A stretch of DNA of 64,000 nucleotides, taken from the NCBI RefSeq assembly GCF_021654115.1, contig NZ_JAIWJF010000009.1, forward strand, positions 62,001-126,000, read 5' to 3'. This document shows, in pieces, positions 48,399-50,811 of this stretch; within the stretch, counting starts at the first letter, position 1, and each line of letters starts with the position of its first letter. The stretch comes from Furfurilactobacillus milii (GTDB taxonomy: Bacteria > Bacillota > Bacilli > Lactobacillales > Lactobacillaceae). A program made the position numbers and the translations under genes. The notes below the pieces were generated by a model that was given only the letters and a program-made list of their open reading frames with translations, did no database searches and had not been told where the DNA came from.

Positions 48399-48956
48399 TT
48401 AGAATTCTGGCCAGTCTTGGTGATCAGCCATCCATGCTGACCCCATAATGCCGTATTCATATTGGTCAAACCACTTGCCATCTTGATAAAGGCCCTCGCG
48501 GTTCACAACTTCACGTTTGAATCCAACACGTTCATAGGTGTGCACGGCCGCCGCGTTATTGCTGTTCACACCCAAACGAACTTTGTACAATCCCATTTCA
48601 AAGAAGGCATAGGCTAACATACAATTAATTGCGTCAGTACCGTATCCATGACCACGTTCAGCCGGATCAACGATGCCAATTCCCAATTCACCCACCTGGT
48701 TTTTCAACTGAATCTCGTCTAACTCAACCCAACCAACTGGGCTGTCATCAGAAAGTTTACGAACAAACAGCATCATGCGATCTGGTTCATTATTAGCCAT
48801 CATTTTAACGAAAAAATCGTGAGATCGAACTTTTGCTAAATCCCACTCACTGCTCCGTGCAAATGCACCAGCCCACTGATGTTGCTGAAAGTAATCTGCA
48901 TCACCCTCCTGCGCCTCAGCGAGTCTGACCAGCCTGCCTCTTAATACATCTTTCAT
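48399..48956 (-). CDS. GNAT family N-acetyltransferase (RimJ/RimL-like)
   Basis: 185 residues. The N-terminus LRGRLVRLAEAQEGDADYFQ, the acetyl-CoA loop GIVDPAERGHGYGTDAINCM and the C-terminal signature VRLGVNSNNAAAVHTYERVGFKRE are typical of ribosomal-protein-type acetyltransferases. It is a close paralogue of the next gene upstream (shared RGHGYGTDA/QGHGYGTDA and HTYERVGFKRE/HIYERVGFKRE). GGAGG lies 8 bases before the ATG and it overlaps the preceding stop (ATGA). It is the third gene of a coupled ASCH-GNAT-GNAT operon. Confidence 0.93.
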   Translation of the reverse strand: MKDVLRGRLVRLAEAQEGDADYFQQHQWAGAFARSSEWDLAKVRSHDFFVKMMANNEPDRMMLFVRKLSDDSPVGWVELDEIQLKNQVGELGIGIVDPAERGHGYGTDAINCMLAYAFFEMGLYKVRLGVNSNNAAAVHTYERVGFKREVVNREGLYQDGKWFDQYEYGIMGSAWMADHQDWPEF

Positions 48957-49510
48957 TTTGTTGCCTCCGTTAGCGCACGCCATTCCGTTTGCAAAATTCC
49001 GTAACTGTACCGGTCAATTCGTTGGCCATCTTGATATAATGCGCCAACATTGACCCCCTCACGTTTAAAGCCAACCCGTTCATAAATGTGGATGGCCCCG
49101 GCGTTATTGCCATTGACTTCTAAATGAACCCGGTGCATGTTCAACTCGTCAAACGCAAACTTCAAAATAATCTGCAACGCATCCGTGCCATAACCGTGAC
49201 CCTGCTGGCTTTCCACGATGGCGATGCCCACTTCTGCACCACGATTCTTCAGTTGAACATCCCCAAGTGAGATCCAGCCAACCGTCGCTTCCGTATCGTT
49301 GGCCCGCACCACATACACGAACTCATCGGTGCCCCAGTGTTCACCCTTAAGATCTTCTTTATAGTCCTCTGGCAGCCATACTCGTGACATGTCCATGCTC
49401 AGTTGTCTGAACCAGCCATCAGTCCACTGTTCTTGCGCAAATAATTCTGTATCGCCCTGGCGCAATTCGGTTAAATGAACCAACTTTCCACTCATAAAAT
49501 TACTCATCAT
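48953..49510 (-). CDS. GNAT family N-acetyltransferase (RimJ/RimL-like)
   Basis: 185 residues, paralogous to the downstream GNAT. Motifs are LVHLTELRQGDTELFAQEQW, the acetyl-CoA loop IVESQQGHGYGTDALQIILK and VHLEVNGNNAGAIHIYERVG. The substrate is unknown. The start ATG overlaps the ASCH gene stop (ATGATGA arrangement) with GGAGG upstream, and its own stop overlaps the next start. Tandem duplication within the operon is clear. Confidence 0.93.
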   Translation of the reverse strand: MMSNFMSGKLVHLTELRQGDTELFAQEQWTDGWFRQLSMDMSRVWLPEDYKEDLKGEHWGTDEFVYVVRANDTEATVGWISLGDVQLKNRGAEVGIAIVESQQGHGYGTDALQIILKFAFDELNMHRVHLEVNGNNAGAIHIYERVGFKREGVNVGALYQDGQRIDRYSYGILQTEWRALTEATK

Positions 49511-49992
49511 TCGTTTGCCTCCAGATTGTCTGCCAAGCTTGCCTGCGTTGCCCTTAGTTCAAACACTTCACAGCTCATTAATAACCGATTACTAAACTGA
49601 TAGTGGTCCTGGGCACCTTCTTCACGAAAGAACGCCTCGTGAACCCGGCGCCAATATGCTAACGTACGATCACCCTCACCTTCATGATAGGCATGTTCCG
49701 CGGATACCTGCTGATAAGGCATTATCTCCGAAACGACATTCTGAATAATCGCGACTGGCTGATTGTCACCGTTTAAAATTATGTCATAGTCACCAACTTG
49801 CGTGACCGCTTCACCCTCAATAAAAGCGGATGTCGTCGCCGTCTTTTTACCTTTAACCACTAAGTCGGCTAATTCGTTTGCCATTGATGTTGTCATCCCA
49901 AACGACCATGCTTCCGGTTGTGGTAGTTGCCGACCAATTGACTGACAGTATGCTTGCCAGAATCTTTTCACTGCCGTATTAGTTTGCTTCAT
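49507..49992 (-). CDS. ASCH domain protein
   Basis: 161 residues. VKRFWQAYCQSIGRQLPQPEAWSFG, then ANELADLVVKGKKTATTSAF and the beta-barrel part VGDYDIILNGDNQPVAIIQN followed by HAYHEGEGDRTLAYWRRVHE match the ASCH fold, related to PUA domains and expected to bind RNA or modified nucleotides. The start ATG at 49992 has GGAGGA 8 bases upstream; the open frame further upstream runs into the leader repeats. It is the first gene of an operon with two acetyltransferases. The unusual tandem leader at 50060-50575 precedes it. Confidence 0.88.
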   Translation of the reverse strand: MKQTNTAVKRFWQAYCQSIGRQLPQPEAWSFGMTTSMANELADLVVKGKKTATTSAFIEGEAVTQVGDYDIILNGDNQPVAIIQNVVSEIMPYQQVSAEHAYHEGEGDRTLAYWRRVHEAFFREEGAQDHYQFSNRLLMSCEVFELRATQASLADNLEANE

Positions 49993-50094
49993 GAGTAAGT
50001 CCTCCATTGTTGGAATGTCGATATGGTGAATGCTTTTAGAAAATCCGCAGTCCTTGCTCAACTTCTCCTAGGGCTTCGGCATCACTCTATAAAA

Positions 50095-50123
50095 AAAGCA
50101 CCCGGCTGCTTGCCGAGTGCATA
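50095..50123 (-). terminator. Terminator within the tandem leader
   Basis: Minus strand GCACTCGGC/GCCGGGTGC (with a G-T pair) followed by seven T. It lies 28 bases after the stop of the small frame and about 110 bases before the ASCH start, so it could act as an attenuator. Confidence 0.85.
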
Positions 50124-50150
50124 ACCACCATGACGACATTCAGTCCTACG

Positions 50151-50249
50151 TTAACGTTTAAAAAAGTGCACACTGGTCCCCTTAAACGCAGATACATACG
50201 AAATTGTAAATGCATTTGCAAACCAGTTAGCAAACGTTAATGCAGACAT
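50151..50249 (-). CDS. Putative 32-residue peptide in the tandem leader
   Basis: It encodes MSALTFANWFANAFTISYVS followed by AFKGTSVHFFKR. GGGAGG lies about 9 bases before the ATG and a T-run terminator follows the stop, so the layout is that of a complete tiny gene. It is aromatic and amphipathic with a basic C-terminus. It could be a secreted or toxic peptide, or a leader peptide. No family is recognised. Confidence 0.5.
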   Translation of the reverse strand: MSALTFANWFANAFTISYVSAFKGTSVHFFKR

Positions 50250-50642
50250 TGCAATGTCCTCCCTCACATAATTTACCGAAAATTGCTTGAACCTTACCGA
50301 GCTTCGGCATCACTCTTCTAAACGTGCACCTTACTTCTGAATCCTGTGCATAAGCCACAAGTCAAAGCGTTCGGAAAACCACCGAATCATTCGCCTTGTT
50401 TCTTATTGCTCGGATTCAACCCGAAGTAAGGCATCACTCTTCTAAAACGTGCACCTGTCGCTCAAGGCCCTGTGCATAACCCAAAGCTGTCATCCTACAA
50501 GCAAAGTGCGCTTGCACGCTGCCACCTTTACGTTATTGCTCGAACCTTACCGAGCTTCGGCATCACTCTTAAATTATAAACAGTTTAGCATTCTCATTAG
50601 TTTCTAAGCAAGTTGTTTTTTACTTTTCTAAAAACAGTAAAA

Positions 50643-50811
50643 AAGAAGCTGTGACACAAGTCCGATTTGAGAACGAGCATTAACGTAAGATTGACCTGTT
50701 CCCGAACTTTGGGAATAGGTCAATTTTGGGTTAAGCGGAATTCTCAGGACTTTGGAGCGCGATATTGCTCGTATTATTCGTCCCCAAAATAAACTTATGT
50801 CATAACCTCTT
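50643..50811 (-). repeat. Long imperfect palindrome (hairpin element)
   Basis: Outer arms AAGCTGTGACACAAGT and ACTTATGTCATAACCTC pair with several G-T pairs. Inner segments ACGAGCA and TGCTCGT also pair, and the centre holds a 13-bp hairpin TTGACCTGTTCCC/GGGAATAGGTCAA (50691-50723). It lies between the csoR stop and the tandem leader. It is probably a palindromic intergenic repeat that also ends transcription. It is unrelated in sequence to the 13-copy family. Confidence 0.7.

Follow-up and report, generated by a model that had tools for sequence, protein, structure and literature searches.

The BOX elements of Streptococcus pneumoniae are modular hairpin repeats that lie near genes and vary in the number of their internal units. 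GTAG-tagged REP sequences are dispersed palindromes of 20-40 nt found in unidirectional and convergent gaps near gene 3' ends, where they often provide a TAG stop codon; their stems show complementary changes and G-T pairs, and they are thought to be mobilised by a RAYT tyrosine transposase (PMC3733652). The nearest described cases in related bacteria are Efa-1/EFAR and the bcr repeats. Efa-1 of Enterococcus faecalis is 163 bp long, occurs in 65 copies and consists of a pair of adjacent stem-loops (PMC2267715), and bcr1-bcr18 of the Bacillus cereus group are short intergenic repeats with RNA structure that are partly transcribed in UTRs and operon gaps (PMC3446304).

The element described here belongs to a large and apparently undescribed family of dispersed repeats with tens to hundreds of copies in lactic acid bacteria. 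Like the GTAG REPs it lies at gene 3' ends and often gives the stop codon; unlike them it measures 125-140 nt, has several helices with a fixed bulge and internal loop, forms head-to-tail arrays and is not accompanied by a Y1 (RAYT) transposase in either of two genomes searched (G000 and G049). It shares with EFAR/Efa-1, for which the 2007 EFAR paper reportedly noted insertion at terminators, that it is a structured intergenic repeat in the Lactobacillales, but judged by the description of EFAR (adjacent stem-loops, L-shaped, one species) it is set apart as a single hairpin present in several families. Unlike bcr1-bcr18, which are confined to one species group, it occurs across an order and keeps to the sense strand at stop codons, and unlike BOX, which by its description repeats an internal module within one hairpin, each of its units is a complete hairpin. 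The family is thus REP/MITE-like in behaviour, differs from REP in size and in the transposase, and is absent from Rfam.

The locus was found in a window of 64,000 nucleotides of Furfurilactobacillus milii, to which all coordinates refer. The initial annotation had read the region as a tandem structured leader of four units ahead of an ASCH-GNAT-GNAT operon, each unit marked by AGAGTGATGCC. All four copies of this motif are exact and on the minus strand as it had placed them (50559-50569, 50430-50440, 50306-50316 and 50078-50088, with spacings of 129, 124 and 228), and at up to one mismatch the window holds five matches compared with 0.7 expected. The units are not equal. Only U1 (50441-50571, minus strand; cmsearch 130-139 bits; MFE -49.4 kcal/mol, z -3.8) and U2 (50317-50440, minus strand; stem variant TTACTTC/GAAGTAA; 105.6 bits; MFE -48.2 kcal/mol, z -6.0) are complete; U1 is a hairpin element of about 130 nt with the long-range stems S1 and S2, a bulge, a GAGCAATAAC/GTTATGCACAG internal loop and an apical helix. 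The other two are truncations that retain roughly the first 36 nt of a unit: U3 (50282-50316, minus strand) comprises only the first ~35 nt, with a BLAST match of 97% to the first 36 nt of U1, and U4 (50052-50088, minus strand; ~37 nt) lies just upstream of the ASCH gene. What had appeared as a 228-nt third unit is made up of a truncated copy, then a 32-codon ORF (50151-50249, minus strand; MSALTFANWFANAFTISYVSAFKGTSVHFFKR, with GGGAGG upstream) and the intrinsic terminator that closes the small-ORF unit (GCACTCGGC...GCCGGGTGC followed by T7; 50091-50120, minus strand). A TATAAT at 50573-50578 (minus strand), unchanged in F. rossiae, F. milii C5 and sp. UBA11204, is a candidate -10 box that would put the start site at the first bases of U1. 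The minus-strand order is therefore TATAAT, U1, U2, truncated U3, small ORF, terminator, truncated U4 and ASCH. A fifth, complete element (50643-50775, plus strand; 70.1 bits) sits in the terminator of a CsoR-family gene and is antisense to its neighbour.

The ASCH-domain gene (49507-49992, minus strand; Pfam ASCH E=2.4e-21) is followed by two GNAT acetyltransferase genes (48953-49510 and 48399-48983, both minus strand). Its true start is most likely the ATG at 49992 behind GGAGG, since the alignment with orthologues begins at residue 22 of the longer ORF. The 184-aa TTG-started version of this ORF, which extends to 50061, is over-extended, and its segment 49992-50061 (minus strand) runs into the truncated U4.

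The element, about 125-140 nt long, folds into one long hairpin of rigid geometry. On the sense strand an AGAGUG...GCACGUUU foot (AGAGUG/CACGUUU) leads into a stem of some 8 bp, which a 4-nt bulge near CGGUU separates from a 7-bp stem; beyond these lie a GA/ACA internal loop around GCA-UAAC/GUUA-UGC and a long apical helix. RNAalifold applied to 52 units returned such a single hairpin, unbranched (0 branch points), and the model built on this fold (R1) matched other genera. From 69 diverse copies a structure of 41 pairs was obtained and a second model (R2) was built. In this alignment 91.6% of cells pair, 37 of the 41 pairs have changed on both sides, and the covariation score was 0.654 compared with 0.188 for shuffled alignments and 0.08-0.14 (maximum 0.135) for slid partners; the scored alignment had been fitted to a simplified form of this structure, which favours it, and a plain MAFFT alignment agrees (0.524 compared with 0.200). 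The sequences of the stems vary almost freely among copies while pairing is retained. The stem proposed to close the whole of U2 is accordingly real and proved to be a general rule across the family, in which the long-range helices covary. In contrast, the local GCTCG/CGAGC hairpin noted after the motif is not the conserved structure: it shows no double changes and covaries no better than shuffles. TTATGCAC, taken for the end of a unit, makes up the 3' strand of the central internal loop, some 25-30 nt before the unit ends. Its third occurrence (50117-50124) adjoins the terminator and lies outside any unit.

Of 116 copies, most of them from Furfurilactobacillus, 115 give a more stable fold on the sense strand than on its complement (mean -14.7 kcal/mol); in a distant genome this holds for 43 of 57 copies (mean -4.5). 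In stem S2, placed with anchors that carry no pairing information, G-T mismatches outnumber A-C mismatches by 83 to 34. Given that the copies are related, these counts are not independent and overstate significance, and the loops may supply part of the energy difference. The better folding of the sense strand and the excess of G-T argue for a role of the sense strand in single-stranded form. Two further observations concern the structure. At the orthologous sites L029, L046, L065 and L089 the lower stems are conserved and the entire apical helix differs among some of the copies while still being well paired, suggesting that apical modules may be exchanged between dispersed copies. Many copies in genome G003 (L195-L214) end in GTTTGCGAAGCAAAC, which gives an extra small hairpin right after the element foot.

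A BLAST search of the region against its own genome found 39 places, mostly full or partial copies of the unit, which stand singly or form head-to-tail arrays whose last copy is usually truncated, and about 40 copies score well with model R2 in this genome. At a threshold of 1e-7 the Lactobacillaceae gave matches in 178 of 330 genomes and in 24 of 40 genera; in the Lactobacillales 55 of 295 genomes matched (1e-4), and at the class level only 8 of 348 did. At the phylum level the own genome stood alone among 299, with none of the 298 others matching. The per-genome counts of these wide scans are lower bounds, as about 10 candidates were scored in each; when 150 candidates were scored, two complete genomes held at least 138 (G049) and at least 131 copies. 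In a 480-kb set there were 71 matches and none between 35 and 51 bits, so that real copies and noise are well separated. A strict pattern of the loops searched in 84,980 species genomes was found essentially only in Furfurilactobacillus (F. rossiae, F. milii and sp. UBA11204), and four further matches were not element-like. The unit had no match in phage, plasmid and viral collections, and no Rfam family matched the element at gathering or relaxed thresholds, in line with the earlier statement that it matches no known riboswitch or attenuator. The open-access literature contained analogues and no description of the element family; an older paper under closed access may exist.

The location of the copies was examined in the own genome, where strong copies are nearly all downstream of a gene on the same strand, many at about -9 to +8 nt from its stop codon, and in other genera, where placement relative to the upstream gene is the same and the downstream gene has either orientation. 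An unbiased sample was taken from 415 contiguous kb of one complete genome, with genes called by a simple ORF finder, so that a few assignments are possibly wrong. This stretch contains 57 copies, which fill about one-eighth of its intergenic space (~7.4 of 58.9 kb). Of the 57 copies, 53 share the strand of the upstream gene, and 41 of these 53 start between -39 and +8 nt of the stop codon. Sixteen start exactly at -4, and in these the element's own TAG is therefore the stop of the gene. Copies occur in 17 of 49 convergent, 28 of 137 codirectional and 1 of 57 divergent gaps, and the codirectional gaps hold 30 sense copies and 1 antisense copy. Together these counts tie the element to gene 3' ends and not to leaders. 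The idea that the element substitutes for a terminator was rejected, since canonical terminators are equally common in codirectional gaps with and without it (8/28 and 35/109). U1 is an exception to the 3'-end rule, as it begins at the candidate promoter about 265 nt past the upstream gene. In genome G783 (Bacilli; L181, 1-1338) a sense copy begins 2 nt past the 23S rRNA match and before the 5S rRNA, where there is no stop codon.

Comparison with F. rossiae and F. milii records, whose flanking sequences at orthologous sites mostly share 94-98% identity with the window genome, showed gain and loss of whole units. The lengths of orthologous arrays differ in multiples of about 126 nt; at three Furfurilactobacillus sites, for example, they are 419/169/546/418, 311/443/424/318/189 and 41 against 292 nt. 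Neither F. rossiae nor F. milii C5 has the plus-strand copy at 50643-50775, and in both the CsoR-family terminator is intact; in this single comparison of an occupied and an empty site the copy replaces part of the terminator and leaves no clear target-site duplication. Terminal inverted repeats of the MITE type are present, in that the AAAGAGUG/CACGUUU ends pair as helix 1. The small-ORF protein is 100% identical in F. rossiae and F. milii C5 and 91% in sp. UBA11204, and its DNA is present in 5 of 6 Furfurilactobacillus genomes (one partial) and was not found in searches outside this genus. The 3' half of the ORF is nearly invariant as DNA, sp. UBA11204 included, and may also be an RNA signal. 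In F. milii FUA3583 (L086 and L098, left of the ASCH array) another sequence, which from a reading of its frames resembles the end of an IS30-type transposase, takes the place of the promoter, U1-U3 and the 5' half of the small ORF, and because of this replacement the block seems dispensable.

The reading of the region as a leader of tandem riboswitches or attenuators that controls the ASCH-GNAT-GNAT operon is largely refuted, and we regard it as highly unlikely. It drew on tandem structured units with conserved loops and on a terminator and TATAAT box close by, and the block of promoter, U1, U2, U3 and small ORF is indeed kept in the same order in F. rossiae and also in sp. UBA11204, where ASCH is only 62% identical. 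However, the order of units, ORF and terminator means that ASCH is not the first gene past the full units and that the terminator belongs to the small ORF, contrary to the annotation in which ASCH was the first gene controlled; this terminator cuts the full units off from ASCH, and the T-run assigned to the end of the unit nearest the operon in fact precedes the nearest copy, which lies downstream of it. We infer from this arrangement that U1-U3 would form the 5' part of the small-ORF transcript and would do no sensing for ASCH. Immediately ahead of ASCH there are 0 full units in the window, 1 each in F. rossiae and F. milii C5, and 2 in F. milii FUA3583, a count that varies among close relatives, and the local hairpin lacks covariation. 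A riboswitch or attenuator would be expected in the 5' leaders of one recurring set of genes; the neighbours here are diverse and the bias is towards the upstream gene. The search for homologues with a covariance model that had been suggested recovered the element across relatives, and conservation in relatives was confirmed by the matches in the Lactobacillaceae, while the genomic copies were found to adjoin unrelated genes. The units are thus real, conserved, tandem and structured, but not a leader for this operon: given some 40 copies beside unrelated genes and the tie to 3' ends, the window copies are two full and two truncated members of a dispersed family and not an ASCH-specific switch.

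Two other explanations place the function of the structure in the element's own DNA or spread. That it acts as DNA, either as a single-stranded hairpin for a recombinase in the manner of attC or as a protein-binding palindrome, is in our view improbable. Bulged bases and variable stems recall folded recombination sites, the AAC/GTT arms with a bulge are what we take to be an attC-like feature, and whole units come and go; yet a double-stranded palindrome is strand-symmetric, which does not fit the excess of G-T over A-C and the better folding of the sense strand, there are no gene cassettes between units, and orientation tracks the upstream gene in both gene orientations within one region. An integron attC site was rejected outright on account of the extra stems outside the arms and the missing cassettes. 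A purely selfish miniature mobile element, the structure of which serves its own mobilisation and the sense 3'-end copies of which are tolerated or targeted (e.g. beside terminator stems), is somewhat unlikely and is supported by presence and absence at one orthologous site, by changes by whole units, by truncated copies and by the copy directly after the 23S rRNA. Several copies lie right behind terminator T-runs and one within the CsoR-family terminator. Tolerance alone would, however, hardly produce a 30:1 sense bias and a sharp peak at the stop codon, nor is it in keeping with compensatory change that maintains sense-strand pairing across an order. Two kinds of mobilising enzyme were also searched for: no Y1 transposase was found in G000 or in G049 with its many copies, and no reverse transcriptase (RVT_1) in five of six copy-bearing genomes (G000, G003, G049, G062 and G153). 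Mobilisation of the REP/RAYT kind and of the group II intron or retron-like kind were rejected on these grounds.

The element is a structured, strand-specific and gene-end-associated repeat family with turnover of units. We lean towards the view that it is an order-wide family of non-coding, non-autonomous dispersed elements, a mobile-derived hairpin that acts at the RNA level at gene 3' ends. The relevant strand would be the one transcribed with the upstream gene, on which each copy folds as a long hairpin. Copies would have spread by a copying route that needs no present-day Y1 transposase or reverse transcriptase, and head-to-tail arrays would afterwards gain and lose whole units. In the mRNA the hairpin would begin at the stop codon, which it would frequently provide, and by analogy with what has been proposed for REP it could act on the upstream cistron after transcription, either by blocking 3' exonucleases or by serving as a site of processing. 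Unit number varies freely among close relatives, and this speaks against tight regulation by the element. A more specific proposal is an undescribed, functional class of structured RNAs of the Lactobacillales: 3'-UTR hairpins, present by the hundred in some genomes, that would control how stable the cistron is whose stop codon they abut, or how it is processed, through a host protein reading the conserved bulge and internal loop. This proposal is tentative and on balance unlikely.

If the element does act in mRNA it would constitute a genome-wide post-transcriptional layer in these lactic acid bacteria, and if it is selfish it would be a mobile element that comes to lie at the 3' ends of genes in a single orientation and has no known enzyme. 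In both cases it offers a simple marker for typing strains and gives rise to spurious leader and attenuator annotation.
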